The notes beneath the pieces were generated by a model, which made no database searches, was not told the DNA's origin, and saw nothing but the letters and a program-made list of their open reading frames with translations. From contig JAAYYY010000494.1 of the NCBI GenBank assembly GCA_012515125.1, positions 1 to 43,864 of the forward strand: a DNA stretch of 43,864 nt. Reading direction: 5' to 3'. Made by a program: the position numbers and the translations under genes. This DNA is from Chloroflexota bacterium (GTDB taxonomy: Bacteria; Chloroflexota; Anaerolineae; Promineifilales; Promineifilaceae). Of the stretch, positions 19,478 to 40,670 are shown piece by piece (the stretch's first letter is position 1; each line of letters begins with the position of its first letter).

Positions 19478-19813
19478 TTAGCGACGGCGGTCGCCGGGAC
19501 GGCCCGACGAAGGGCCCCGACGACCGAAGTCACCGCGACCACCGCCGCGCTGACCACCACCGCCGCGCTCTTCACGCGGGCGAGCCTCGTTGACCGTCAG
19601 ATTACGCCCACCCATGTCCGTGCCATTCAGGGCGGCGATTGCGGCGCGAGCTTCGCTATCCGAGGGCATCTCGACAAAACCGAAACCGCGCGACTTTCCA
19701 GTCTCGCGATCGGTGATGATCGCGACGGAGCTGACCTCGCCGAAAGCTTCAAAAGCTTCCTGCAGGTCTTCTTCTCGCGTATTCCACGACAGATTACCGA
19801 CATATATGTTCAT
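19478..19813 (-). CDS. RRM-type RNA-binding protein (Rbp family), Gly/Arg tail
   Basis: 111-residue single-RRM protein. RNP2 is IYVGNL (residues 3-8) and RNP1 is [10 protein letters not shown] (about 41-50), each with the aromatic residues that stack on RNA bases. After residue 78 follows a Gly/Arg-rich tail ([16 protein letters not shown]) as in cyanobacterial and chloroflexal cold-inducible Rbp proteins. It probably binds single-stranded RNA as an RNA chaperone. AGGAGAAGG precedes the ATG. A cold-shock domain gene lies directly upstream on the same strand. Confidence 0.92.
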
Positions 19814-24193: not shown

Positions 24194-25030
24194 ATGAAGC
24201 GCCTGTGTACCCTAACGCTTATCGTCACCCTGATCGCGGCAGTTGCCTGCGCTCAGGAGAGAGCGGAGACGGAGCCTACGCCGTCCACGGCTGCCACTGC
24301 CCTACCCTCGACGGTAGATACGCCCATACCCCCGGCAGGCGTCACGGCGACGATCGCCGCACAGACAACGCCATTCGGCGATGAGGACGCGTTCACTGCC
24401 GCACGCGAAGCGATGGTGGAAGAGGGTATCGTCGGCATGGGCATTACCGACGAAACGGTCATTGCGGCGATGAGCGCCGTGCCGCGCCACCGCTTCGTGC
24501 CCGAGGAATGGCTGGCCCAGGCTTACGAAAACCACCCGCTGCCCATCGGCCACGGGCAGACCATCTCCCAGCCGTACATCGTCGCGCTGATGACCGAGGC
24601 AGCGGAGGTGGGAGAGAGCGATCGTGTGCTGGAAATAGGCACCGGCTCGGGTTACCAGGCGGCCATTCTGGCCGAGATTGTCGATCGCGTCTACACGGTC
24701 GAGATCATTGGCGCGCTGGCCGAACGAGCTGAGGCGACGCTGGAGACGCTGGGCTACGACAACGTTACCGTGCGCCACGCCGACGGCTACTATGGCTGGG
24801 AAGAAGAAGGGCCGTTCGATGCAATCCTCGTCACCGCAGCGCCCGACCATATCCCTCAGCCGCTGGTCGCCCAGCTTAAGGTGGGCGGCCGGATGATCAT
24901 TCCGGTCGGTCCGGTCGGCGGCTACCAGACGTTATGGCGCGTCACCAGAGTGAGCGAGGAGGAAGTGCGGACCGAGGATCTGGGCGGCGTGGTCTTCGTG
25001 CCCTTCACACGGGAAGAGCCGGAGTCGTAG
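24194..25030 (+). CDS. pcm: Lipoprotein-type protein-L-isoaspartate O-methyltransferase
   Basis: 278-residue protein made of a lipoprotein signal (hydrophobic core [11 protein letters not shown], lipobox-like AVAC with Cys19), a Thr/Pro/Ala-rich spacer to about residue 65, and a complete PCMT domain. The catalytic region has [27 protein letters not shown] (the PIGxGQTISQP signature), the SAM loop [15 protein letters not shown] and [13 protein letters not shown]. It methylates isoaspartyl residues so that they can be repaired. The signal sequence predicts a membrane-anchored, outward-facing enzyme, which is unusual since SAM is cytoplasmic. AAGGAG precedes the ATG by 7 bases. The last 26 bases overlap the convergent membrane protein gene. 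Confidence 0.88.
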
Positions 25031-27416
25031 CCGGGCGGGCGGCGAAGACCAGCCAGGCGAGGGCGTAGGCGGCTGCGCCGAGGTAGAGGACGGCGGGCAG
25101 GCTCCACGTCAGGGCAACGACGACGGCCAGCACCGAGCTGATCACCGAGAAGCTGCCGTTGATCGCCCACGCCCAGGGCACGAGCGCGGGGCTATGCTGC
25201 TCGAGGAGCCGCAGGCCAGCGGCAAAAGGTAGGCCCATGAGATAACCCAGCGGAGCGAGCACCGCGACTGCCGCCAGCACGCGCGCCGTTTCGCCGAGCC
25301 GCAGGGCGAAGTCGGAAAAGGAGGGCAGGAGCAGCGGGTAGAGTAGCGCAAGCAGGACGAGGGGCGGCAGCACCCGGCGGAGAGACCAGCGCTGCACAGT
25401 CAGGCTGCCCAGGCCGGAGAAAAGCAGGATGGAGAAGATGACGACCGAGAGGGCAATGACCGGCTCGTCCAGCACGAGGATGAAGCGCTGGGCCAGCGGC
25501 ACCTCGACAAAAAGGAAGGCGAGGCCCAGCGCGGCAAAGTAGATAAAGACGCGCAGCCGCCACCGCGGACGCACCGACGCCATTTCCTGCCGCTCGCCCC
25601 GGCGGAGGAGCACCAGCGGCGCGAGGATGAGCACGAACGCCGCCAGCGTCACCAGGATGAGCAGGGCGACGAGGACGAAATAGCCGCTGCCGCCAAAAGG
25701 CTGCCACGTTCGCCCCAGCGAGGCCAGAATCTCGGGCGTCTGGCGCCACTTGAAGTAGTGGAAGAAAAAGGGATGGTCGTCGGTGGGCGGGCGGATGTCA
25801 AAGCGGTAGTCGCGGTAGAGCGCCTGGGGGTCGTCGAGGATGCGCACGAACAGGTCGTGATAGGCCTCTTCCTGCAGGACGTTGAAGCGGTTCAGCTCGC
25901 CCGGGGTGATGCCGGGATAGTAGACGCCGTCGTAGCCGCGCGTGGTGAGGAAGTCGCGCACCATAGCGACTTCTCCGGCGGTAAAAGGGCGGGGCGAGGC
26001 CAGGATCGTCGCCGTGCGTAGGGTGCGAAAGGCGGCGAGGTGTTCCGCCGGATCCAGCCCCTCGGCGCGCAGCGCCGCAGCCAGCATGCCGAAGGTACGC
26101 GGCGCTTCGCTGGGCGGCCACTGCAGCCAGCGCGTGACGACGAGCAGCCCATCCTCCTCCAGAACGGCCAGATAATCGCGCATGGCCTCAACCGTATAAA
26201 CATAATCCTCTGTGAGGCTGTAAGCGCCGGAGGTGACCGGCCGGTGGGCGTCTGTCAGAGAGACGACGACGACGTCATACCGTCCGCTTTCGGAGCTGCG
26301 CACAAAGACCCGGCCTGACTGGCGTACGACCGTCACCCCGGGTCGCTCGAAAAGGTTGCCCGTCTGGGCAGCAAATTGCCGGCGCACCGCATCGATGACG
26401 AGGGCGTTGTCTTCCACAGCCGTCACCGATTTTGCACCGGCTGCCAGGGCAAGGAGCACATCCAGTCCCGTGCCTGCCTCCAGCACCAGCGTGGCGGCGC
26501 CAGGGCGCAGCCGGTATGGCAGGCCGAGAGGCAAATAATCGGCAAGCTGCTGTGCTTCCGGCGCCTCGGGGGCCAGGAGCGTGATTGGCATCAGGTCGTC
26601 GCCGTCGAGCAGCAGGCCGGCCTGCGGCGGCACCGGCACCGGCGCGAGCAGGCTGAGGCCGGGCATCACGTGGATGGTATCGCTGGCGATAACGTCCACC
26701 CGCGACGTGGCATTCCAGTCGGTCAGCAGGTGCTCCGCGCCGGCAGCCTGGGAGAGGATTGGCAGCGTCTTGTAGGGCGAGAGGCGCAGCGCCAGGAAGC
26801 CGGGGCGCAGGACGAGGAGCAAGAGACCGGCTGCCAGCAGGATGAGGGCGCCAGCACGACCGGTAACACGCCATCGTGCTGGCTGCGGCGGCGCAGCCAG
26901 CAACGCTGCCAGCACTCCGCAGAGGGTCGCCAGCAGCACCGTACCCACCTCTCCGAGCATCGCCAGCGCCGGCAGGCTACCCAGGCTGCCAGCCGCCGAG
27001 CCCAGGAGGTTGACCCCATAGACGGCGTGGGATCGACCGGCCAACCCCGCGCGCATCAGCTCCCCACCGATGGCCAGCCCTGAAAAGACGAAGGGCGCTG
27101 CAGCCGCCAGGAAATAGAGCGCCAGGTAGAGGATCTGGCGCCGGTCCCAGGCGATGCTATACGAATCGAAGGGCACGTAGTTGATGATCAGGTAAGCGCC
27201 AAGCGTGGTCAGGGCAAAGGCCATAGCGAGCGGCGCCATGCGGAACGGCCGGCCGCGCACACTGAGCAGCGAGCCGCTGGCGCCGGCGCCCAGGAGCGCG
27301 AGGCTGATGGCCATGAAGGCGAAGTGGTAGAACTGCTGGATGGCAAAGACCCGGAGTAGAGCCAGCTCCAGAAGAAGGGTCGCGGTGGATATCAGGGCGA
27401 TGGCCAGGTAGCTCAT
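25005..27416 (-). CDS. Spermidine-synthase-like multi-pass membrane methyltransferase
   Basis: 803-residue protein with about seven N-terminal membrane helices (residues 1-205), a soluble Rossmann methyltransferase domain (about 215-560; ATLVLEAGTGLDVLLALAAGAKSVTAVEDN is the nucleotide loop, YDVVVVSLTD the next strand, YSLTEDYVYTVEAM a spermidine-synthase-like segment), then eight or so further helices. This layout is that of the fused MFS/spermidine-synthase-like family. True polyamine synthesis is doubtful because the aminopropyl-acceptor motifs are weak. It starts at ATG 27416 with little ribosome site; an extended -10 lies 34 bases upstream. Its 3' end overlaps pcm tail to tail. Confidence 0.85.
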   Translation of the reverse strand: MSYLAIALISTATLLLELALLRVFAIQQFYHFAFMAISLALLGAGASGSLLSVRGRPFRMAPLAMAFALTTLGAYLIINYVPFDSYSIAWDRRQILYLALYFLAAAAPFVFSGLAIGGELMRAGLAGRSHAVYGVNLLGSAAGSLGSLPALAMLGEVGTVLLATLCGVLAALLAAPPQPARWRVTGRAGALILLAAGLLLLVLRPGFLALRLSPYKTLPILSQAAGAEHLLTDWNATSRVDVIASDTIHVMPGLSLLAPVPVPPQAGLLLDGDDLMPITLLAPEAPEAQQLADYLPLGLPYRLRPGAATLVLEAGTGLDVLLALAAGAKSVTAVEDNALVIDAVRRQFAAQTGNLFERPGVTVVRQSGRVFVRSSESGRYDVVVVSLTDAHRPVTSGAYSLTEDYVYTVEAMRDYLAVLEEDGLLVVTRWLQWPPSEAPRTFGMLAAALRAEGLDPAEHLAAFRTLRTATILASPRPFTAGEVAMVRDFLTTRGYDGVYYPGITPGELNRFNVLQEEAYHDLFVRILDDPQALYRDYRFDIRPPTDDHPFFFHYFKWRQTPEILASLGRTWQPFGGSGYFVLVALLILVTLAAFVLILAPLVLLRRGERQEMASVRPRWRLRVFIYFAALGLAFLFVEVPLAQRFILVLDEPVIALSVVIFSILLFSGLGSLTVQRWSLRRVLPPLVLLALLYPLLLPSFSDFALRLGETARVLAAVAVLAPLGYLMGLPFAAGLRLLEQHSPALVPWAWAINGSFSVISSVLAVVVALTWSLPAVLYLGAAAYALAWLVFAARPATTPALPV

Positions 27417-27710: not shown

Positions 27711-28205
27711 ATGAACGAGACGACGCGCGTAGCCGACGAAATGGTTGTCAGTCTGGACTATACGCTTCGGCTGGACGATGAGCAGATTATTGATACATCG
27801 CAAGGACGAGAGCCACTGGAGTTCATCCAGGGACAGGGGCACATTATCCCTGGGCTGGAACGAGAGCTATATGGAATGGGCGTTGGCGACCGCAAGCAGG
27901 TGACTGTCTCGGCGGCTGAGGGCTACGGCGAGCGTGACGAAGAGCGGATGCAGCTCGTGTCGCGCGACGCGTTCGGGCCAGGTACGGAGATACAGACCGG
28001 CATGGGCGTGCAGATGCAGGATCCGCAAAGCGGCCACGTCTACCAGGGCACAATCACCGAGATCAGCGACAATAACGTCCTGATTGACTTTAACCATCCG
28101 CTGGCTGGCGAGACGCTGCATTTCGACGTGACGATTGCGGGACTGCGGCCGGCGACGGAAGATGAGCTGGAGCACGGGCACGTACACGGCCCGCACGGAC
28201 ACTGA
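27711..28205 (+). CDS. slyD: FKBP-type peptidyl-prolyl isomerase, SlyD-like
   Basis: 164-residue SlyD-type isomerase and chaperone. The FKBP halves (VVSLDYTLRLDDEQIIDTS and FNHPLAGETLHFDVTI) flank the inserted-in-flap region (about residues 75-125). LEFIQGQGHIIPGLERELYGM and AAEGYGERDEE are diagnostic. The C-terminus is histidine-rich (EHGHVHGPHGH), which in SlyD binds nickel or zinc. It is cytoplasmic and acts on proline-limited folding and metal supply. AAAGGAG is 6 bases before ATG. A promoter and terminator upstream suggest leader-based control. Confidence 0.93.
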   Translation: MNETTRVADEMVVSLDYTLRLDDEQIIDTSQGREPLEFIQGQGHIIPGLERELYGMGVGDRKQVTVSAAEGYGERDEERMQLVSRDAFGPGTEIQTGMGVQMQDPQSGHVYQGTITEISDNNVLIDFNHPLAGETLHFDVTIAGLRPATEDELEHGHVHGPHGH

Positions 28206-28260: not shown

Positions 28261-28848
28261 TTAGCGGCGACGTCGATTGCTGTTCCCGTTGTTTTTGCGC
28301 TGCTTGCCGCTCCCCTTTGTTTTCCCGGTCTTGGCAGGCTTTTCGTTCTTCAACGACGTATCTTCATGGCGCAACATCTCGTCACGCACGCGATAGATCT
28401 CGCCCGTTGCGCGCCCCTCATGCTGCAGCTCGTCGCGGACACGCCACTCCTCGCGGCTGCTGCTGCCATTCTGTAGCAGATCAGCCCGCGCGCTGTAGTT
28501 CTCCCCGCGGTTGTTGCCCCCCTGCTGCATCGCATTGCGCACGCTGTAGTCGGCGCTGGATGCGTCGCGGCGGGGCGCACGTCTGCGCTTATTCTCGCGT
28601 TTGGGGCGTGGCTGGGCCGCGTTGACGCGCAGCTTGCGGCCTCCAATCGAATGGCCGTTGAGCGCCGTAATCGCCGTGTCGGCCCCGGCACCCTGCATCT
28701 CTACAAAACAGAAGCCGCGAAACTGCCCGGTCTGGCCGTCCCTGACCATCGTCACGGAACTCACCGGGCCATGGCGGGCAAAGAGATCGCGAACCTGTTG
28801 CTCCGTAGTATGAAACGGCAGGTTGCCCACATATATTCTTTTCGTCAC
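28261..28848 (-). CDS. RRM RNA-binding protein with four 17-residue C-terminal repeats
   Basis: 195-residue protein. Residues 4-77 form one RRM: RNP2 IYVGNL (5-10), RNP1 FRGFCFVEM (43-51). A basic patch RPKRENKRRRAPRR follows (81-94). Residues 98-165 hold four exact-period 17-residue repeats of the form (G/R)-E-x-(Y/W)-x-(V/A)-R-(D/N)-x-(L/M), with aromatic anchors at 101, 118, 135 and 152. The tail is Lys/Arg/Asn-rich (168-195). The repeat module is not one I recognise. Start is GTG with AAGGAGAGAGAGG upstream. A good promoter lies 200 bases upstream, giving a long leader like those of cold-shock mRNAs. Confidence 0.88.
   Translation of the reverse strand: MTKRIYVGNLPFHTTEQQVRDLFARHGPVSSVTMVRDGQTGQFRGFCFVEMQGAGADTAITALNGHSIGGRKLRVNAAQPRPKRENKRRRAPRRDASSADYSVRNAMQQGGNNRGENYSARADLLQNGSSSREEWRVRDELQHEGRATGEIYRVRDEMLRHEDTSLKNEKPAKTGKTKGSGKQRKNNGNSNRRRR
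28354..28557 (-). repeat. Four 51-base repeats coding YxVRDEL-type units
   Basis: The reading frame gives a strict 17-codon period: ADYSVRNAM, ENYSARADL, EEWRVRDEL, EIYRVRDEM. The last two units are closest to each other. Nucleotide similarity is partial, so the units are old or under selection at protein level. Confidence 0.75.
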
Positions 28849-29055
28849 CTATCCTCTCTCTCCTTAACTGACGTCCAGGGGATGGACTTGGACTCCACGG
28901 GAACGTTCTGTAATGAGACTCTGATCGCACCAAGAGTGCGCAGTCGCGCAGAAACGAGGCTCCCTGACCAGCGGTCGCCCCGCGACGACCACCATCAACT
29001 ATTGTTGTGCGAAAGGGTTCTAAACGAGATGCTTTCCCAAAGATGGATTAGTGCC

Positions 29056-29084
29056 AGTATAGAGGGAAAGGCCTCGTTCGTCAA
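29056..29084 (-). promoter_or_regulatory. Sigma70-type promoter of the repeat-bearing RRM gene
   Basis: Minus-strand TTGACG, 17-base spacer, TATACT. Predicted start near 29049; leader of about 200 bases before the GTG start. It begins 14 bases beyond the GH38 stop codon, so the RRM gene is uncoupled from the glycosidase operon. Confidence 0.62.
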
Positions 29085-29097
29085 TGTTACTCTGAGT

Positions 29098-32000
29098 CTA
29101 TTGGCCAGGCGCTAACGTGACTCTGAAGGTCCGGATCTCGTAGGCCAGAATGGCAAACGACAGTTGCCGGCCTTCCACGTGCAGCGAGGGATCGGCCTCC
29201 TCCTCTTCGAGGAGATTACAGGCGACCGCCCGCAGGACCGGCCGGTCGAAGGTTACCGTCACCTTCTGGGTGCGAGTCTGCTGCGCTTCGTAGAGGCGGA
29301 TAATCCAGCCGTCGCCGTCTTCGGCCCGCTTGACCGTCTCCAGAATGACGTGCGGGGTGTCAACCTGGGCCAGGGAAGCGCGGGACGGCAGCCCGCTATC
29401 GCCCTCCCCGCCGGCCAGCCCGGCCAGAAGGGGCGCGTTCAATTCATAGCCCTGGCGCTTCACGTCACCCTGCCGCCAGCCGCCGGCATGGGGCCACAGG
29501 CTGTAGGTAAAGCGATGCTGCCCCTGGTCCGCCTGTTCGTCGGGGTAGCGCGCGGACTTGATCAGGGTCAGGCGCAGGACATGGTCCCTGACATCGTAGC
29601 CGTACTTGCAGTCGTTGAGCAGGGCCACGCCGTAATCGCCTTCAGAAAGGTCGGCCCACTTGTGCGCCGGCACCTCGAAGCGTGCCGCATCCCAGGTCGT
29701 GTTCCAGTGTGTGGGCCGCTCGACAGCGCCGAACTGCACGTCAAAGGTGGCTTGGGTAGCGCGGATGGCCACAGGGAAGGCGACTTTGAGCAGGACATCC
29801 TGCTGGCGCCAGTCCACCTCTGTGCGGAAGTCGATGCGCCGGCTGTCCCGATAGAGCGTCAGGCGCTGGGTAATGCGCGAGGCGTCGTATTGCCAGACGA
29901 GGCGCAGGGCGCCGCGCAGGGGCCCGTTCTCTTCCACGACGGCTTCGACCAGCTCGCCGACCTCGTCCATTCTCTCTTGATAGAAGGCGTCTATGTCCCA
30001 GGCGTCGAAGTGCAGCGGCTTGTCGAGGAAGGCCTGGAACACGTTGCCACGCTCGCCGGCAGCCATCACGTCGCGCCCATGCTCTTTGTCCCACAGCGAG
30101 CTGATCTGCCCTCGCTCGTTCAGCTCGATCCGGTAGAAGCGGTTCTCCAGCCGCCGCGACGTGATGACCAGTTCGCTCTCTCCAGGCGGCGCATCGACAG
30201 AGGCGCTGACAAGCGAGAACGTCGCAAATCCGAGCGGCGGGACGCCGTTGACCGGCACGAGCAGCGCCTGACCGCCCGGCGCCTGCCCCTCGCCTATCAC
30301 GTCCAGCGGGTGCGCCTCTTCCTCCACAACCTGCGTGGGCACCGGTTGCCCGGTGGCATCGCAGATCGTCTTTCCCGCCAGCGCCGGGACATAAGGCAGG
30401 GCCACCAGCCCGTCGCGCTCCCAGGAGAGAGGGTTCAGGACGACCAGACTCTGTTCGGGCGGCGCCAGGGCCGCAAACAACCGCTCGCGTGCGCTGGCTA
30501 CAGCCTGGCGGCCGATGGCGGCAATCTCCAGATAGTCCTTATGGCTGTCCTCGTACACGGAGCGGATAGAGGAACCGGGAAGGATATCGTGGAATTGGTT
30601 TAGAAGAATCAGCTCCCAGCCCGCATGCAGCGCCTCGGCCGGATATTCGGCGGCCCCCGTCTGGATGTCGGCCAGCGCGTTCAGCCACTCGGCGACGTGG
30701 AAGAGCGTTTCCGCCTTCCGGTTGGCGCGCTTGTTTTGCGCCTGCGACGTAAACGTGCCGCGGTGGAACTCCGGATAAAGCTCTCCATCCCAGACGGGCA
30801 GCGTGTTTCCCGCCAGACGTTGCTCCAGACGGTCGAAAAAGCTCTCCGCTTTCCCCAGCTCGACCGAAGGCCAGCCGGGCAGGTTGCGCATCGCACGGGC
30901 CATCTCCAGCATCTCTTTTGTCGGCCCGCCGCCGCCATCCCCTCGCCCGTAAACCATCAGCAGCTCGTCGTTAAGCTCCTTCTGCTGGTAATTCTCCCAG
31001 AGGGTGCGCACCTCGGCCGGGTACATACCGGCGTTATAGGTGTGCCCGCGCGTCAGCTTCTTTTCGTCTTCGAGGTATTCCTGCGCGGTGACAAAATGGG
31101 TGAGCAGCTCGCTGCCGTCGATCCCTCTCCAGAGGAACGTATCATAGGGGACGCGGTTGGTCTGGTTCCAGCTCATCTTCGTGGTGAGCATGTAGCGCAT
31201 GCCGCTCTTCACGGCAATCTGGGGCAGCGCCGCCGAGAAACCAAAGGTATCCGGCAGCCAGAGCAGCCGGCTTTCCTGACCAAACGCACGGCGGAGGAAC
31301 TGCTGGCCCAGGAGGAACTGGCGCACCAGCGATTCGCCGTCCGGCAGGTTCACGTCGGGCTCGATCCAGGTGCCGCCGGCAACCTCCCACTGGCAGCCGG
31401 CAATCCGCTCCTTGATGCGCTCGTACAGAACCGGCTCATCCTGCTGTAGATACTTATAGAGCTGCGGCGAGGAATGCAGGAAGCAGTATTCCGGGTACTG
31501 GCGCATGAGGTGCAGCGCAGTCGTGAAGGTGCGGACTGCCTTCTCGCGCGTGTGACGCAGCCGCCAGAGCCAGGCCATGTCGAGATGTGCGTGGCCGATG
31601 CCGACGACGCGGGGCTTGATCTCCCCCGGCGCCTCCAGCCCGCGCAGCTTCTCCTGGAGGAAGGCGTAAGCCTCAGCAACCGACTGGTAGAAGCGCTCTG
31701 ACCGCGGGTGGAGGAAGTCAAGGTGGCTGTAGGCTTCGTCCAGCGCCTGCAGGAGACGAATGCGCGGCAGGCTATGTTCGTCCATTTCGGCGATGACGAG
31801 CAGCAGTGTGTTCGAGAGATGGAAAAACCTCTCGGTCGTCTCGTCGATCCAGACGAGCTGGGCAAGCCGGAACACGCGGCGATCGGGTACGCGCAGCACG
31901 CCGCTCCAGGCGCGCAGCGCGACCGTGATGGCGTTTTCCTGTAGATGCTCTGGCGGCAGCCAGGCCTCGCTATGCCAGTAGTCCAACGCCTGCAGCGGCT

Positions 32001-32322
32001 CGCCATTGACATAAAGAAGTGTCTCGGCCGTCGAGCCGCCGTTATCCCGGGGCCCGACCAGGAAGCGCAGGTATAGACGCTGACCGGCCCACTCCGCTGG
32101 GATAGGCACCTGAGCGCGGAACCAGGCCACGCAGTCATAGCCGCCCCAACTGCTCCCGATCTGGAAGTCGGCCCACTGCCGGTCGTCAAAATCGGCGGCG
32201 GCAGCGTCGGGACAGTCGCCGTCATGGAATTTGAACGCCGGTATGTCGCGTTTATCGCGATAAATCGCCTGTCCCACTTCTCTTTGCAGGCGCAGCAGTT
32301 TTTCGGCGGTCTGTGATTTCAT
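29098..32322 (-). CDS. Alpha-mannosidase, GH38
   Basis: 1074-residue glycoside hydrolase family 38 enzyme of the bacterial/vacuolar type. An N-terminal beta domain (1-235) precedes the catalytic (beta/alpha)7 barrel with GIGHAHLDMAWLWR (zinc ligands His246 and Asp248) and WLPDTFGFS with the nucleophile Asp358. The helical domain and large C-terminal beta-sandwich domains follow, including RDVMAAGERGNVFQAFLDKP. It releases alpha-linked mannose from oligosaccharides with retention. There is no signal peptide, so it acts inside the cell. Ribosome site GAGGGG; 10 bases after the GH2 stop. It is the last and longest gene of the four-gene glycosidase operon. Confidence 0.93.
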   Translation of the reverse strand: MKSQTAEKLLRLQREVGQAIYRDKRDIPAFKFHDGDCPDAAAADFDDRQWADFQIGSSWGGYDCVAWFRAQVPIPAEWAGQRLYLRFLVGPRDNGGSTAETLLYVNGEPLQALDYWHSEAWLPPEHLQENAITVALRAWSGVLRVPDRRVFRLAQLVWIDETTERFFHLSNTLLLVIAEMDEHSLPRIRLLQALDEAYSHLDFLHPRSERFYQSVAEAYAFLQEKLRGLEAPGEIKPRVVGIGHAHLDMAWLWRLRHTREKAVRTFTTALHLMRQYPEYCFLHSSPQLYKYLQQDEPVLYERIKERIAGCQWEVAGGTWIEPDVNLPDGESLVRQFLLGQQFLRRAFGQESRLLWLPDTFGFSAALPQIAVKSGMRYMLTTKMSWNQTNRVPYDTFLWRGIDGSELLTHFVTAQEYLEDEKKLTRGHTYNAGMYPAEVRTLWENYQQKELNDELLMVYGRGDGGGGPTKEMLEMARAMRNLPGWPSVELGKAESFFDRLEQRLAGNTLPVWDGELYPEFHRGTFTSQAQNKRANRKAETLFHVAEWLNALADIQTGAAEYPAEALHAGWELILLNQFHDILPGSSIRSVYEDSHKDYLEIAAIGRQAVASARERLFAALAPPEQSLVVLNPLSWERDGLVALPYVPALAGKTICDATGQPVPTQVVEEEAHPLDVIGEGQAPGGQALLVPVNGVPPLGFATFSLVSASVDAPPGESELVITSRRLENRFYRIELNERGQISSLWDKEHGRDVMAAGERGNVFQAFLDKPLHFDAWDIDAFYQERMDEVGELVEAVVEENGPLRGALRLVWQYDASRITQRLTLYRDSRRIDFRTEVDWRQQDVLLKVAFPVAIRATQATFDVQFGAVERPTHWNTTWDAARFEVPAHKWADLSEGDYGVALLNDCKYGYDVRDHVLRLTLIKSARYPDEQADQGQHRFTYSLWPHAGGWRQGDVKRQGYELNAPLLAGLAGGEGDSGLPSRASLAQVDTPHVILETVKRAEDGDGWIIRLYEAQQTRTQKVTVTFDRPVLRAVACNLLEEEEADPSLHVEGRQLSFAILAYEIRTFRVTLAPGQ

Positions 32323-32332
32323 CTCGATCCCC

Positions 32333-34120
32333 TCACGCGGGGGCCAGAGCGGGCAAGCGCTCCGCTTGCGCTTCTGGCTCCGGTGACCTTCCCTGGTTTA
32401 TCGCGCGGATGATCTCCAGCGGCAGCTTAGGCCGCCGGTCGTAGGTGAGCAGCCCGTTGATCTCCTGTTCGACGTCGGTCAGCTGAGTATAGCAGTAACC
32501 CTGCAGCAGAGGAGCCCGCTGCAGCGCCCCGACGAGACGCCCATAACTGGCGGCGAATGCCTCCTCGTCCGTCACCGTACTGTATCCCCAACCCTGCTCA
32601 TCGCCAAGCCGGAAGGCGATGCCCCCGCACTCCGACACCAGGATCGGCTGGCCCTCATAGCGGAAATCGCCAACGTAGAGAGGCCGGTTTGACGGGCGGT
32701 AGGCCAGCACTTCCTCCATCGCGGCATAGCGCGCGTAGAGCGTTTCGGCGTCGCTGCTGTAATCGTGTATCGTACACAGATCGCTGTAGGCGTGCTCCCA
32801 GCCGTCGTTGCTGATCACCAGGCGCGTCGGGTCCAGGGCACGGGTCAGGTGGTAGAGCGCCTGCAAAAGCTCCCGCTGGCGCGGCTCCTGCTGCAGGGCC
32901 GGAACGCCCCAGCTCTCGTTCATCGGCACCCAGGCGACGATGCAGGGATGGTTGTAGTCGCGGGCAATGACCTCCTGCCACTCGGCGACGAGGCGGCGCA
33001 CGCCGGTCTCGGAGAAGCGGTAGTTGTTGGCCATCTCCCCCCAGACCAGCAGGCCCAGCCGGTCGGCCCAGTAGAGGTAGCGCGGGTCTTCCACTTTCTG
33101 GTGCTTACGCACGCCGTTGAAGCCCATCTCGCGGGCCAGCTCAACGTCGCGGCGCAAGTCCGCATCGCTCGGCGCGGTGAGCAGACCGGTGGGGAAATAG
33201 CCCTGGTCGAGCACCAGCTTCATGGTGTACGGGGCGCCGTTGAGGCGGATCTTCCCGTCCACCACCTCGATGGAACGCATGCCAAAATAGCTGCGAACTT
33301 CGTCAGGGCGCCCTTCCCCCGTAGATAGGCGCAGCGTCACGTCGTAGCAGGCCGGGTCCTCCGGCGACCAGAGCCGGGCATTGGGGATGGCAACGACAGC
33401 TTCGCCGCTGCCCCCTTCCAGCGCTATCTCCGCCGACGCCACAAATTTGCCCCCGAACGTGATCTCACAGGCAGCGGTAGCGGGCAGCGGCGAGCTGGCT
33501 GTGCAGGCGATGGTCACCGTGCCGGCGCTCACGTTCGGCGTAAGCTGGACACGCGTCAGGTGAACCGCCGGTACGACCTCCAGCCAGACCGTCTGCCAGA
33601 TGCCGCTGCTGGGCGTGTAAAAGATGCCTGCTGACTGCTCCTGCCAGAACTGTTTGCCCCGCGGCTGCGTCAGGTCAGTGATGACGTCTTCCACGCGCAC
33701 GACGAGGTGGTTTGTTTCCGCCAGCAGCGGGGTGATGTCGGCCTGGAAAGGCGTGTGCCCGCCCTCGTGGTAGGCGGCAAGCTCGCCGTTCACCCAGACC
33801 CAGGCCCGGTAATCGACGGCGCCGAAGTGCAGGAGAACGCGTTGCCCGCCCTCGCGCCAGCCCGCCGGGACCATGAAGGTACGGTGATACCAGAGCAGGT
33901 CGTGCCTCTCGCGCCGGCCGATGCCGCTGAGCGCGCTCTGGAAGACATACGGCACTTCGATTCTCTGCGGAAAGCGACCCTCGACGTTCGCCGGATCGTA
34001 CCAGCGCTCTTCCAGGCCCTGGTCTCCGTCATCGAAGGCAAAGTCCCAGGCGCCGTTGAGGTTCAGCCAGTTGGCCCGCACGAACTGCGGGCGTGGATAT
34101 TCAGGACGATGGCTCATCAT
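32333..34120 (-). CDS. GH2 family beta-glycosidase
   Basis: About 595-residue GH2 enzyme with the usual order: sugar-binding jelly roll (residues 1-180), immunoglobulin-like domain (180-280), TIM barrel. The acid/base Glu is in VPMNESWG (about 402) and the nucleophile in ILVSECGG (about 497). GH2 covers beta-galactosidase, beta-glucuronidase and beta-mannosidase; with a GH38 mannosidase and a GH84 GlcNAcase in the same operon, beta-mannosidase or beta-galactosidase is likeliest but not proven. It is short for LacZ (no domain 5). Three ATG codons stand in tandem at 34115-34123; the middle or last fits GGAG best. It overlaps the GH57 stop by about 20 bases. No signal peptide. Confidence 0.9.
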   Translation of the reverse strand: MMSHRPEYPRPQFVRANWLNLNGAWDFAFDDGDQGLEERWYDPANVEGRFPQRIEVPYVFQSALSGIGRRERHDLLWYHRTFMVPAGWREGGQRVLLHFGAVDYRAWVWVNGELAAYHEGGHTPFQADITPLLAETNHLVVRVEDVITDLTQPRGKQFWQEQSAGIFYTPSSGIWQTVWLEVVPAVHLTRVQLTPNVSAGTVTIACTASSPLPATAACEITFGGKFVASAEIALEGGSGEAVVAIPNARLWSPEDPACYDVTLRLSTGEGRPDEVRSYFGMRSIEVVDGKIRLNGAPYTMKLVLDQGYFPTGLLTAPSDADLRRDVELAREMGFNGVRKHQKVEDPRYLYWADRLGLLVWGEMANNYRFSETGVRRLVAEWQEVIARDYNHPCIVAWVPMNESWGVPALQQEPRQRELLQALYHLTRALDPTRLVISNDGWEHAYSDLCTIHDYSSDAETLYARYAAMEEVLAYRPSNRPLYVGDFRYEGQPILVSECGGIAFRLGDEQGWGYSTVTDEEAFAASYGRLVGALQRAPLLQGYCYTQLTDVEQEINGLLTYDRRPKLPLEIIRAINQGRSPEPEAQAERLPALAPA

Positions 34121-35348
34121 CATGTCTCCGAATCAATAATGAATCTTTCGCAGACAGGCCCGCCTCCGGCCGTTTGATCCCGGCGAGCATCTTTTCAGCC
34201 AGGGCAATCGCCTCCAGCGCGTAGTTGTAGCAGTCGAGCCGGCGCTCCGGGCGGGGCGTCCAGCCGCGCCCATCCGAGTTTTCGGCCAGGAGCATGGCCC
34301 GCCACGCCTCCTGGAGCATCAGCTGATTCTCTGGATGCAGCACAGTCGCCAGCCGCAGCTTCTGTTCGGCCTCCTGGCAGAGGGCGTTGAGCCGGGCATT
34401 GTCGGGATCGGCCGTCCATACGTCGAGGTTGCGTTCGGAGCTGCCTGCCGGCACGTAGACAGTTCTTGCCGGGGGGTAGGCCGCCAGGTAATCGCGGGGC
34501 AGCATAGAGCCGGTGAACGGCAGCTCCCACACCTGTTGCATGAAGCGCGCGAAGGCGTCCAGCGAGAGCGAATCCTTGCCCAGCGCCGCATAGGCGCCGA
34601 TGAACTCGGCGTCCGAAGGGCCGCAGAAGAGCAGCGCCGGGACATCCCCGGCGTGGGCGTCAACCTGGCGGAGCAAATCGGCGATGCTGTCAAAAGCTTT
34701 GCGCCCATAGGCCGTGTCAAAGAGCAGGCCGATCAGTTCGCGGTACATCGGAAAGGCGGTAAGCGTGGCCCCCCGGGCGCCGCTCATGCGCAGCGGGTGA
34801 AGCAACTCCGGGCCGTCGGCCGCCAGGGATGGGCCCACTGCGGGTAGCGGCTGGGTGGACAGGTTGAGCTGCTGCCGGAGCCCGGACAGGAGCAGGCGAG
34901 GCGTCAATAGGGTGTAGCTGTAACCGGCGGCCTCCAGTAGCGGAGCCAGCGACGGGTCGTACGCAAACTCCTGCAGAAAGATGCCCTGCGGGCGCGGCAC
35001 AGCCAGGTCGCCAAAGAGCCGGTCATAGATGGCGATGAAGCGGGCGACGTGCTGCCGGGCGTGGTCGGAGGGAATGAGCGGCAGGATAGGATTCGCGTAG
35101 GTGCCGCCCATCAGCTCGATCTGCCCTCGCTCCAGAAGCAGGCGCAGGAGGTCAATGCCCTCGGGCCACCGTTCGGCCAGCAGCTCCAGCGTGACGCCCG
35201 AATACTCAAAGACGGCGGGCAGCTCAGGGCGCGCGGCGAAGAATTCGAGCGTAGGCAGATAACTGCGCTCGACCAGATCGGCAGCCGCGCCGGGATGGAA
35301 CTCGGCGTATTGAATGTTGGCGTGGAAGAAGGGGATCAGGTGCAGCAT
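34101..35348 (-). CDS. GH57-like glycoside hydrolase
   Basis: 415-residue protein with the compact GH57 (beta/alpha)7 plan. The N-terminus MLHLIPFFHANIQYAEFHPG has the GH57 entry motif in a variant form, IELMGGTYANPILPLIP corresponds to the E(L/F)xxxxYxHPI(L)P motif, and GIFLQEFAYDPSL (122-134) occupies the nucleophile region with Glu127. The C-terminal helices include LNALCQEAEQKLRLA. GH57 enzymes act on alpha-glucans, alpha-galactosides and related sugars; the substrate is undecided. It begins 8 bases after the GH84 stop, with no ribosome site of its own, so translation is probably coupled. Confidence 0.82.
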   Translation of the reverse strand: MLHLIPFFHANIQYAEFHPGAAADLVERSYLPTLEFFAARPELPAVFEYSGVTLELLAERWPEGIDLLRLLLERGQIELMGGTYANPILPLIPSDHARQHVARFIAIYDRLFGDLAVPRPQGIFLQEFAYDPSLAPLLEAAGYSYTLLTPRLLLSGLRQQLNLSTQPLPAVGPSLAADGPELLHPLRMSGARGATLTAFPMYRELIGLLFDTAYGRKAFDSIADLLRQVDAHAGDVPALLFCGPSDAEFIGAYAALGKDSLSLDAFARFMQQVWELPFTGSMLPRDYLAAYPPARTVYVPAGSSERNLDVWTADPDNARLNALCQEAEQKLRLATVLHPENQLMLQEAWRAMLLAENSDGRGWTPRPERRLDCYNYALEAIALAEKMLAGIKRPEAGLSAKDSLLIRRHDDEPSS

Positions 35349-35356
35349 ATGACCAT

Positions 35357-36796
35357 TCAGCTCGTGGTGGGTGGTTCGGTGGAAATAGCTTCTTCTTCAG
35401 GCAGCGCCTCTGCCCGGCGTTCTGTTCCGAAGTCCCGGCCGGATACAGCCGCCGCCAGCGCATAATCGGCCAGTGGCAGCAGCACGCTGCCGCCGGTCCG
35501 GCAGGGTTGGGCCAGCGCAGCCCGCCGCAGCTCGCCAAGCGCGCCGGCCCCAGAAGCGGCGGGCCAACCCGCCAGGCCTGCAGAGAGAACGGCAAGCGTC
35601 TGGCGGCCAAGTGCGAGCCACGCCTCCAGAGCGTCCAGCCAGGGACGTATCTCAATTCGCAGCAGCTCATCTTCGAGGTCAGAGCGCAGAGATTGGCAGT
35701 CCTGGGTCAGGGTGGCGAGATAGCCGTTCAGAGCATGCACGGCGCTGCTCTCCGCGGCCTGCTCGCCCCGCCGCAGCGACGCGAGCGTGGCTGTGACCAG
35801 CGTTGCCAGAGGTTCGGGCGGATCAGGATAGAGCGCCGAGAAGAGGCTGGTCTCGGCAAAGCGGCGCAGCGCGGCATGGCTGGAGGGACCGGCTGTGGTA
35901 TAGAGCGCGCGATCCCATGCTGCTGAGGGCTCGTACATCTGCGGCGCGCGCAGATATTCGCCGGTGGTCTGCAGGGGGATCTGCGAAGCGACCGGCTGCA
36001 GCATCAGGTTGGCGACGTAGCCGCGCGTGTGTGCGTAGAGCGTCGTTTCGCGCCCCCGCAGCGGGCCAAGATGCAGCTCTGGCGCCATCGCCAGATCGTT
36101 AACCGGGTAATTGTCCCAAATGACCGGGGGGCGCCCGGTGGCGGCGGCAAAGGCGTCTACGTCGGCAACCGTAATCTCGGACGAGCAAACGTCCGGGCCG
36201 GTGTAGAAAAGCTCGATTGCCGGATGCAGCAGCGCGCCGAAGGTGTGCAGCGTCTCTGGGAACGGCGCCCGGCCGGCATAGTCTGTCGGGCAAACGAACA
36301 GCGGACAGGCCGGATCCAGCTCCTGGAGCCAGGCATAAACACGGTTGCAGAGATCGGCCTGAGCGGCAGCCGGAGAGGCGTAACGGCGGGCATCCTCCGC
36401 GCTGATGAGGCGAGGCGTGACGTCGTCCATGAGCAGGCCAAAGGCGCGGGCGCCGATCTGGTAGAAGGCGTGCAGCTTCGTAGTAATCGCCGCGAATTCT
36501 CCGGCGTCGGCAAGGTGCAGCCCGGCCGATGGGCTGAGGGCGTAGCAGAAGGTCAGGCGGGCTTCGCCGGCTACGGCAATCGTCTCCGCGAAAGCGGCCA
36601 TATCCTCGCCGCTGTACGGTTTCCGCCAGTCGTCACGATGGCAGCGGTCGTTCTTCGGCGCGTAGATGTACAGGTTGAAGCCGTGCTCGCCGAGAAAGCG
36701 GATCAGGCCCTGCCGCTGGCTAGCGCTATAGAAGGGGCCATAGAAGCCCTCGATGACCCCGCGCAGCGTGAAGAAAGGGGCGTCGCTACCGGACAT
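35357..36796 (-). CDS. Beta-N-acetylglucosaminidase, GH84 (O-GlcNAcase-like)
   Basis: 479-residue enzyme. The catalytic barrel begins with LRGVIEGFYGPFYS (11-24) and LYIYAPKNDRCHRDDWR (42-58), both diagnostic for GH84. The paired catalytic aspartates are Asp124-Asp125 in GLLMDDV. YAHTRGYVANLM and WDNYPVNDLAM are further substrate-site blocks. It removes terminal beta-GlcNAc by substrate-assisted catalysis. The C-terminal 180 residues are helical. No signal peptide, so cytoplasmic. ATG at 36796 is chosen because GAGGGAG lies 8 bases upstream; the frame extends 28 codons further without similarity. First gene of the glycosidase operon. Confidence 0.92.
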   Translation of the reverse strand: MSGSDAPFFTLRGVIEGFYGPFYSASQRQGLIRFLGEHGFNLYIYAPKNDRCHRDDWRKPYSGEDMAAFAETIAVAGEARLTFCYALSPSAGLHLADAGEFAAITTKLHAFYQIGARAFGLLMDDVTPRLISAEDARRYASPAAAQADLCNRVYAWLQELDPACPLFVCPTDYAGRAPFPETLHTFGALLHPAIELFYTGPDVCSSEITVADVDAFAAATGRPPVIWDNYPVNDLAMAPELHLGPLRGRETTLYAHTRGYVANLMLQPVASQIPLQTTGEYLRAPQMYEPSAAWDRALYTTAGPSSHAALRRFAETSLFSALYPDPPEPLATLVTATLASLRRGEQAAESSAVHALNGYLATLTQDCQSLRSDLEDELLRIEIRPWLDALEAWLALGRQTLAVLSAGLAGWPAASGAGALGELRRAALAQPCRTGGSVLLPLADYALAAAVSGRDFGTERRAEALPEEEAISTEPPTTS

Positions 36797-37158
36797 CACC
36801 GCTGCTCCCTCGTACGGTGCGCGTCCACATGGCAAACACCTGCCACTGGCTGGAGGTGTCTTTATAGTCGGCAGCCGCAATCAGCAGACTGCCTGCGACA
36901 AACAAATGAATTGGACCCACCGAACAATCAAAGACTCGATATAAACAGGGCGAGAGGTGGTGATGCGATTGGCTTTGCCCTGAACAAACTCATATCGGGC
37001 TGGCGCCCGTGTGAAGGTGACCTCTTCCTTACGTGCGCCGGGTGGTGCCGGGAACAGGTAGTGTCCTGCGGGCAATACGAGGCGCAAACGGCGCCCTCAC
37101 CCGCGACCGTCCACCGCATGCGGATTTTATCCCGTTCTGTGCGTGGAAACAACATGAC
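36797..37158. other. Intergenic region upstream of the glycosidase operon
   Basis: About 360 bases. A minus-strand TATAAA (36861-36866) lies 65 bases before the GH84 start, without a good -35. Short open frames on both strands have no ribosome site. This is where a regulator of the operon would be expected to bind. Confidence 0.4.
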
Positions 37159-37406: not shown

Positions 37407-40400
37407 CTACGACGAAGCAGGCGGATAACCCAGCTCGTCCAGCAGCCTACTCGCCGCCTGCGTGTCTGCAGCTGCCAGCACGTCGCGGATGGCTATCGCC
37501 AGGCTGCCGGGCGGCAGTCCCGGCCGCAGAGCAAGCGCCAGCTCGCGAGCAATCGCCAGCCAGGGCAGCTCCGCCTCGCTCTCCGCCACGTAGAGACGGC
37601 CCGCCGGCTGGTCCAGCCAGACCCGCACCGGCTCCGGCGGGCTCGCCAGCTCGGCGTCGCCCAGAGATAGCCTGAACTCGAGTTGCAGGGACGAGGCCCG
37701 CCAGACCTGCAGGCGGGCAAGGGTAGAGCCGGCCGCCCCGCGGCCATCCCCCAGCTCAGCCTGCACAATCCGATGGATCAGGTAAGCCCTATCGACCAGA
37801 CGCTGCTCAACCACCGGCAAACGCACGGCATCCGGCCACACGGTAAGGCGGGCCTGTACCAGCGCAGATAGAGGTCGCACGCCTGCCGCCTTAAGCACGC
37901 CTGCCGCAGCTAGATCGGGCGAGAGGAAGCGCCCGGCCGCGCCGGCAAAGCGCTGGGCCAGCTCTTCCTCCCCGGCAAAGGCTAGCTGGTCGGGCCGCCG
38001 CAGTACCCTGTCGCGATCGGGGATGACCTCATGTGGACGCAGGGCCGCCAGCCATTCTTGCTCGATCTCACCTGCGACAAACAGGGCGTCCAGCCGCCGC
38101 CAGATCGCCCAGACCCGATCCAGTAAGGCCGGATGAAGCTGATGATTTCCTTGCGCGGCGTCACCAATCTCCAGAAGGGCGGCAGCCACCTCGTCAGCGT
38201 CCGGCAGCGCGCGAACGCCAAGCCATTCCACGAGGGCGGCGATGGCCTTGCTCTCCACCGGCTCGGCAATGTGCGCCCTGTCGCCGAGCAGATCGCGGGC
38301 CTCGCGCTCCGTGTACGCGCTCCGGGCCGGCCGGAAGGAGCCATCCATGCAGGGAACCAGAGGCAGCGCGCTCAGCTTCTCGCGCAGCTCCTCGTCGTCG
38401 CGGAACTCGCCGAGCCGTCCCGCCAGAAGCTGCAGGAGACGGTGGCGGGCGTCAGACGGCAGATCGGGACGGTTCTGCAGGACCCGGGGGAGTTGCTCGT
38501 AAAGGTAGGCGTCGAAGGTGAGTTCCTCCATACCCAGATCCCGGAGGAATTCGGCGCGTCCGCCCAGCTCGTCAAGCTCCACAAGACCGGCTGCCTCCAG
38601 CGGATCGGCGAAGCCGCCGGGAATATAGAGATCGGCCAGCGGTCTCAGCTCGCCGCCGATTGGCCCAAGGGGTAACCGGCGAATCAGGCGCCCCAGCGCG
38701 GGATCGTCGGCAAAGATCTCAATTTGCCGCGACTCGAACCAGCGGAAAAGGCGCGGCAGGTCGAGCCGTCCCAGCCGCCACTCCTCCTCCAGCCGGTCAG
38801 GAGGTGCTTCCGCCAGGAGGGTAACCGCCTGCCGCACGCCGAACTCTGGGACAAAGCGGCCGGGAAAGCTATCTACGGGCGCGAGGGGATGCAACCAGGC
38901 AACGTCAGGGAAGAGTGCTCGCGCCTCGGCGCTGCCCCGGTAGACGCGGTCGAGGCGCTCCAGCATCATCGCTTCCGTCAACACGACGGCGCATGTCACA
39001 AGCGCCGCCAGTCCCCGCTCTCGGGCTGCCGGCGAGCGGTCCAGCAACGGATCGATAAGCTGCCAGAGAGCCAGCAGGTCGTCGAGCGTCTGCAAATAGG
39101 GCGGCGCCAGAGCAAGCGGCGTGGGCCGGTCCAGGCCGGCAGCGCGCAGGGCCTTCGCCACGTCGGAGGCGGCAATGAGCGGCACGCCACTCTCTTCCTG
39201 ACGTAACAGGGCGTAGTATGGCGCCAGGTCAGGATGGACGAGGGGAAGCTGCAATGCCTGAAGGATGCGCAGCATCTCCTCGGAAGGGCGCCGGTCCAGG
39301 AGGTATGTTTCTGCGGGCAGCCGCCACTCTCCCTGCAGCGTGTGGACGACGGGCTGCTGCGACAGCAGGGGCGCGACGCGATTCCAGAAGGCGGCAAATA
39401 TGGCGGGGAGATCGCCGTTCTGCGCCATCTGCCTGGTCTCGGACAGCTGTTGGAGGAACTGCCAGAAGCCCGTGGGTCTTAGCGCCTCGCGGACTCTCTC
39501 CAGGTTCCCGGCGACGAGTTCGGCGGCGGCGGTCAACGCCGCTTCATTCCACGCCGCCTGATAGCCGTTTTCCAGGTGGATCCGCTTCCTGTCCGACGTC
39601 GGGTAAAAATCGGCGTTGGCGTGGAAGGGCAGTGGCGTGCTGCTTTCGGTGGGCAGGCCGGCGAAGAGGCACCCCTGGCGGAGTGGCGCTTCCAGGGGCA
39701 GCGCCAGCCGGACCTCGCTTTCGCGCGTTGTCTCGATCTCCCAGGGATAGCGGGCGCGCAGTTGCGCCGCCTCGTCAAAGCGGCCGTCGAGCAGGAGCCA
39801 GCGGCTGGCTCTGCCCGTCTCATCTTCCAGGTGAAGCACGTTTTCGTCCGCCACCAGGCGCGTGATCCGGCGCAGGAGCGCGCCCTCGCGCCGCACCTCC
39901 AGTTGCTGCAGCCGGCGAAGGAAGAGGGCCGCATGCTCGATCGCCCGGGCCAGTCTGGTCGCCAGATCATCCAGCTCTCCGGGTTGGATGGCCGGCAGCC
40001 GCAGGCGGCGCCGTACCGGCGAGCCGGCGTCGAAAGCCCAGGGCAGACGGAAGAGGGTGTCCGTGGTCTTCACGCGCCGCTCCTCGATGCGTTCTTCCGG
40101 CAGTGCTTCCGGGCGGATGATCCAGTGTCGATTGCCAGAGAGGATTTCCGGCCTGTCGGTGATCTGGTAAACGGCGAGGAACCCCAGACCGAAGGCCCCC
40201 ATCGTCCCGGCTTCCTCGCGCTTGCCGCCGCTCGCCAGCCTCTGCATGCGGGCAAAGTCAAGCGGGCGGAAGACGCCGCCATTGCTCACCAGCAGGGCTT
40301 CAGCTGTCACGTCGAAGGCGATCCACGGTGGGCCGGCCTCGGACTCGCCGGCCTGCACGTCGTCTGCATTCTGGATCAGCTCGTAAGCCAGTGTCTCGAT

Positions 40401-40484
40401 ACCCTGCATATCTCGCAGTTGGGCTTCGAGAAAACCGAGGTAATCGACACCCTGGGGAAGAAAGGTAGAGTCACCGGAGGCCAT
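37407..40484 (-). CDS. Sacsin N-terminal-like GHKL ATPase, large protein
   Basis: 1025-residue protein whose N-terminus is an HSP90-type GHKL ATPase of the sacsin subgroup: ELIQNADD (35-42) is the N box, SNGG (about 67-70) and GAFGLGFLAVYQITDRPEILSG (96-117) are the following ATP-lid motifs, and PFHANADFYPTSDRKRI marks the sacsin-specific extension. The remaining 650 residues are helical, Leu/Arg-rich and without a recognised enzymatic domain; repeats of LxxPxDGS-like segments recall sacsin. Bacterial sacsin-like proteins may be chaperones or parts of defence systems. ATG at 40484 has GGAGAG 5 bases upstream; 51 codons upstream in frame are low-complexity. A 186-base gap separates it from the histidine kinase gene. 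Confidence 0.88.
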   Translation of the reverse strand: MASGDSTFLPQGVDYLGFLEAQLRDMQGIETLAYELIQNADDVQAGESEAGPPWIAFDVTAEALLVSNGGVFRPLDFARMQRLASGGKREEAGTMGAFGLGFLAVYQITDRPEILSGNRHWIIRPEALPEERIEERRVKTTDTLFRLPWAFDAGSPVRRRLRLPAIQPGELDDLATRLARAIEHAALFLRRLQQLEVRREGALLRRITRLVADENVLHLEDETGRASRWLLLDGRFDEAAQLRARYPWEIETTRESEVRLALPLEAPLRQGCLFAGLPTESSTPLPFHANADFYPTSDRKRIHLENGYQAAWNEAALTAAAELVAGNLERVREALRPTGFWQFLQQLSETRQMAQNGDLPAIFAAFWNRVAPLLSQQPVVHTLQGEWRLPAETYLLDRRPSEEMLRILQALQLPLVHPDLAPYYALLRQEESGVPLIAASDVAKALRAAGLDRPTPLALAPPYLQTLDDLLALWQLIDPLLDRSPAARERGLAALVTCAVVLTEAMMLERLDRVYRGSAEARALFPDVAWLHPLAPVDSFPGRFVPEFGVRQAVTLLAEAPPDRLEEEWRLGRLDLPRLFRWFESRQIEIFADDPALGRLIRRLPLGPIGGELRPLADLYIPGGFADPLEAAGLVELDELGGRAEFLRDLGMEELTFDAYLYEQLPRVLQNRPDLPSDARHRLLQLLAGRLGEFRDDEELREKLSALPLVPCMDGSFRPARSAYTEREARDLLGDRAHIAEPVESKAIAALVEWLGVRALPDADEVAAALLEIGDAAQGNHQLHPALLDRVWAIWRRLDALFVAGEIEQEWLAALRPHEVIPDRDRVLRRPDQLAFAGEEELAQRFAGAAGRFLSPDLAAAGVLKAAGVRPLSALVQARLTVWPDAVRLPVVEQRLVDRAYLIHRIVQAELGDGRGAAGSTLARLQVWRASSLQLEFRLSLGDAELASPPEPVRVWLDQPAGRLYVAESEAELPWLAIARELALALRPGLPPGSLAIAIRDVLAAADTQAASRLLDELGYPPASS

Positions 40485-40514
40485 CAGCTCTCTCCATCGC
40501 CAATCAGGCGTGGT

Positions 40515-40533
40515 GCGGCCGGGACCCGGCCGC
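40515..40533. repeat. Perfect GC inverted repeat before the sacsin-like gene
   Basis: 9-bp arms around a single base (40515-40523 with 40525-40533), 31 bases before the start codon, in its leader. It has no T run, so not an intrinsic terminator. An operator or RNA structure is possible. Confidence 0.5.
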
Positions 40534-40670
40534 GACGAGGCGATCTTAAGCCCATCGCCCCATTGGAACAAACCGCCGGGGCGACTATGGGCAATCAGCG
40601 TCCGGGAGAGAGCATGAAGGTGGCTTCCCGCCGGCACAAGCTAACCGATTCGCTTGAGAAAGGGCTGAGA

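Follow-up and report, generated by a model that had tools for sequence, protein, structure and literature searches.

What kind of appendage is a tail of four evenly spaced units on a bacterial RNA-binding protein, and what might it do there? The question is raised by a gene for a single-RRM protein in the window (the whole 43,864-nucleotide stretch of Chloroflexota DNA analyzed here), whose parts are listed in Table 1. An initial annotation had placed repeats at residues 98-165 of this minus-strand frame, which correspond exactly to 28354-28557, and had correctly described them as lying after the RRM and ahead of a Lys/Arg-rich tail; the natural phase of the four tandem units is residues 95-162.

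Table 1. Coordinates in the window of the RRM gene, its parts and the adjoining FKBP gene.
Feature	Position	Strand	Evidence
Single-RRM RNA-binding protein gene, 195 aa, GTG start	28261..28848	minus	ORF
RRM domain, residues 5-74, RNP2 (IYVGNL) and RNP1 (RGFCFVEM)	28627..28836	minus	Pfam, alignment, pLDDT
Arg/Lys-rich linker, residues 83-94	28567..28602	minus	sequence
Repeat unit 1, DASSADYSVRNAMQQGG	28516..28566	minus	self-comparison, codon-position comparison, unit profile
Repeat unit 2, NNRGENYSARADLLQNG	28465..28515	minus	self-comparison, codon-position comparison, unit profile
Repeat unit 3, SSSREEWRVRDELQHEG	28414..28464	minus	self-comparison, codon-position comparison, unit profile
Repeat unit 4, RATGEIYRVRDEMLRHE	28363..28413	minus	self-comparison, codon-position comparison, unit profile
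Lys/Arg/Asn-rich C-terminal end, residues 163-195, net charge +10	28264..28362	minus	
Ribosome-binding-like AAGGAG, 11 nt upstream of GTG start	28860..28865	minus	sequence
FKBP-type peptidyl-prolyl isomerase, His-rich end (EHGHVHGPHGH)	27711..28205	plus	Pfam FKBP_C E=2.3e-15

The N-terminal domain belongs to RRM_1 (PF00076; E = 5.8e-20, 71.4 bits against a Pfam cutoff of 20.7). Its RNP residues Y6, G45, F46 and F48 are invariant in an alignment of 49 sequences, so that the domain can fairly be expected to bind RNA. RRM secondary structure is present in the AlphaFold2 model, with pLDDT above 90 both with and without an alignment. A promoter-like match, TTGACG-17-TATACT (10/12; 29056-29084, minus strand), is found ~210 bases ahead of the start of the RRM gene and would imply a long 5' leader on the transcript. 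Long 5' leaders are common in cold-shock genes. No known RNA family was matched near the RRM gene in Rfam.

The 17-residue period in the tail is not a product of chance. When residues 86-170 are compared with themselves, offset 17 scores 49 and all other offsets from 8 to 29 are negative. The score was matched by none of 3000 shuffles, the best of which reached 35 over all offsets, and the initially annotated period is real. The evenly spaced aromatic anchors Y101, Y118, W135 and Y152 are also confirmed. They are the sole aromatic residues beyond residue 80, and random placement of four residues in a tail of 113 gives equal spacing in 0.03% of draws. The description as four strict repeats is right as to the four units and wrong as to strictness, since pairs of units share 4-6 of 17 amino acids (26-28 of 51 nucleotides) and Arg at unit position 10 is the one invariant column. 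Of the unit motif originally proposed the Arg stands, while Ala takes the place of the Glu in unit 1 and of the Asp/Asn in unit 2. A profile built from the four units and run against the organism's own genome matches just these four (E about 1e-6 each; next match E 3.6).

The nucleotide sequences of the units bear on how the repeat has been kept. With all six pairings of units taken together, codon positions 1, 2 and 3 are identical in 60, 58 and 46 of 102 comparisons, against 30.8, 30.8 and 35.1 (sd about 4.5) expected from shuffling codons within units. The excess lies mainly at positions 1 and 2, which argues that the motif is kept at the protein level, and the units look like old tandem duplicates in which the amino-acid motif was retained as silent sites diverged. 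Selection on the tail across species is not demonstrable because no orthologue shares it. A rival explanation, given perhaps one chance in four, is that the tail is a near-neutral, fast-drifting disordered segment, the repeat a relic of slippage or duplication, and that the RRM does all the work. Pure drift would blur the motif, yet the aromatic residue and the Arg are retained in 4/4 units, and matches between units at codon positions 1 and 2 clearly exceed chance where silent sites have diverged.

Could the repeat be an artefact of a wrong frame, an assembly error or a contaminant contig? The genome is fragmented (721 contigs) and its contamination estimate is 8.8%, but this explanation is very improbable. 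GC at the three codon positions of the repeat (0.69, 0.46, 0.81) is similar to that of the RRM and of neighbor genes, GC2 and GC3 included, and together with the ribosome-binding-like site ahead of the single open frame this makes the frame very probably genuine. The best RRM matches come from the same family, whose members have FKBP, RecQ, PCMT and HMG-CoA reductase genes, all present in the window, close to their RRM genes. PCMT is the adjoining gene in several other genomes of the family, and RecQ in one. Such shared FKBP, PCMT and RecQ neighborhoods support placing the contig in the family and make an assembly artefact unlikely.

RRM relatives (E up to 1e-12) are found in 40 of 52 genomes of the same family; with others added, about 60 were compared. 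Their tails are nearly all short and Gly/Arg-rich, in keeping with the initial view that Gly-rich tails are usual. The mean composition of 59 of them is 38% Gly, 22% Arg, 7% aromatic residues and about 0% Leu/Ile/Val/Met; the window tail (113 aa) has 9% Gly and 10% Leu/Ile/Val/Met. The 17-residue period is absent from the tails of all ~60 relatives, the same genus included, which tells in part against the initial annotation. Some Gly-rich tails are regular in their own way, with Tyr every 14-15 residues (L058, L075) or every 10-11 (L069, L077), and a tail of spaced aromatic residues and Arg is thus a shared theme.

Closer relatives differ in their tails as well. One genome of the same genus has two RRM proteins without the repeat. 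The tail of L015 is of the SRGG type, and that of L068 (SAEKAESGNHPGSMLHMRTSRGQYGGHGDFAHSDRNSGDGSRHKRRR; L068:865-1242) is neither Gly-rich nor, unlike the window tail, repetitive. Cold-shock-like and universal-stress-like genes occur near the L068 RRM gene. Repeats are also lacking from the two further RRM genes of the window's own genome, the first of which lies within the window (19478-19813) and the second on a different contig. Turnover of RRM tails seems to be rapid in this genus. A tree of the RRMs (61 rows, 80 columns) places the window protein among those of the family. In one run it grouped weakly with L068 (support 78), but pairing it with L015 does just as well; 80 columns do not fix its sister, and either protein is at most a candidate strict orthologue.

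Wider searches were made in samples of class and phylum genomes and in contig scans that detect exact short peptides; alignments of two units were left out because MAFFT shifted them. The tail gave chance matches alone in 396 class genomes, where the aligned matches lacked the repeat, and nothing above chance in 400 phylum genomes. Plasmids and viral contigs also gave chance matches alone, as did a scan of GTDB contigs for exact peptides, and neither Pfam nor PDB returned a match to the tail at E up to 10. The profile search that the initial annotation had looked to for relatives of the units found, beyond the four themselves, only chance matches: in 298 class genomes the 17-column profile hit single sites in unrelated frames, never in tandem, and tail and profile searches of the own genome found no second copy. 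Judged by these searches, the repeat is private to this genome among the genomes and databases sampled. Its privacy is what a drifting tail would lead one to expect, as is the wide variation of tails among relatives, the dissimilar and non-Gly-rich tail of L068 included. Deletion of the Gly-rich tail of Synechocystis Rbp1 leaves growth in the cold normal (PMC9333190), so the window tail, too, may do little.

The solenoid first suggested for the repeat is not borne out by structure prediction. AlphaFold2 models the RRM confidently, but the tail has pLDDT of about 40-55 with and without an alignment and shows no repeat fold; since there is no alignment depth for the tail, these values do not prove disorder. 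The tail likewise falls outside known solenoid and repeat families, given this model and the Pfam and PDB results. An amphipathic helix was considered and rejected, as the average unit at 100 degrees per residue does not rise above shuffles (p 0.37-0.64). A beta-like alternation at 160 degrees is borderline (p 0.02-0.05, uncorrected for several looks). Short helices at 135-143 and 154-157 appear in the single-sequence model, in the cores of units 3 and 4. These turns, the fixed spacing and the one conserved aromatic-Arg core per unit would suit a docking array or small repeat fold that holds one particular partner (a ribonuclease, a helicase, the ribosome or the membrane) and builds an RNP scaffold, along the lines of the initial annotation. 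Such an arrangement is nevertheless unlikely: the helices have a confidence of about 50 and vanish when an alignment is supplied, the helical moment is unremarkable against shuffles, and no homologous array is found in Pfam, PDB or the sampled genomes. Less probable still is a de novo tandem docking array in which every unit would bind a single partner molecule or a further tail, giving a lineage-specific multivalent RNP scaffold. Condensate formation and ribonuclease recruitment by the tail, both raised at the outset, are speculation.

The neighboring genes indicate no partner for the repeat tail, a further point against docking. The FKBP gene is convergent to the RRM gene, 55 bases away. An FKBP gene lies immediately before the RRM gene, in the same direction, in six genomes of one other genus of the family and in a single genome from a different family of the class; in the same-genus genome it is 2 kb away. 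FKBP genes adjoin or lie near single-RRM genes at L007, L009, L056, L060, L062, L064, L028 and L068. A folding helper and an RNA-binding protein may thus form a conserved pairing in the class. Beside the RRM gene is also a minus-strand run of glycosidase genes (29098-36880; GH38, GH2, GH57 and a beta-N-acetylglucosaminidase, NAGidase) with no evident link to it. Farther off, an 803-aa membrane protein (25005-27416) has a spermidine-synthase-like look mid-protein, with no Pfam match at 1e-5, and a 1076-aa protein (37407-40637) carries a Sacsin-type domain (PF25794).

The preferred reading, at a probability of roughly 0.55, is that of a single-RRM protein of the cyanobacterial Rbp-like kind that has, in this lineage, exchanged the usual Gly/Arg-rich tail for four 17-residue units and a basic end, together forming a flexible arm for weak interactions or targeting. 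RRMs of such proteins bind single-stranded RNA with little specificity, and this one would do the same. At intervals of 17 residues the arm would offer one Tyr or Trp and an Arg close by. Weak contacts of this kind with RNA, other copies of the protein or a partner protein could add together and so direct the RRM to particular places or RNAs. In this way it may tune RNA affinity, self-association or targeting, with the basic C-terminal end probably contributing RNA affinity. The repeat tail is an observation from a single genome and its function a prediction from sequence. It looks like a flexible, quickly evolving appendage more than a new type of machine, and it shows in clear form how a conserved bacterial RRM can have its tail replaced: Gly-rich in most relatives, the tail is an unrelated repeat here.

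Several known proteins share parts of this layout. Bacteroides RbpB (RRM-1) is, like the window protein, a bacterial single-RRM protein and is a global RNA binder; it comes from another phylum, and the portion of its description consulted gives it no repeat tail (PMC11697453). Synechocystis Rbp1, of type I, has the same single N-terminal RRM with RNP1 and RNP2 followed by a C-terminal tail, and the ~60 relatives share its plan of an RRM and a short tail. Where type I proteins have a tail at all, it is Gly-rich and short, as a rule less than 45 aa, whereas the window protein, with its 113 residues at 9% Gly, its four units and its Lys/Arg-rich end, falls outside the type. Synechocystis Rbp3, of type II, is closer in one respect, having a long (over 60 aa) tail after a single RRM that is not Gly-rich. 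Its tail contains the PDPRWA motif, which is absent from the window protein; the tail of the latter is the 17-residue repeat, no sequence relation between the two was found, and the window protein does not belong to type II either. Experiments in Synechocystis give a precedent for tail-directed function: when it carries the long non-Gly Rbp3 tail, the Rbp1 RRM shifts from a function in the cold to one in salt tolerance (PMC9333190). If the window tail sets targets as that of Rbp3 does, tail swaps would be a simple means of rewiring RNA regulation.
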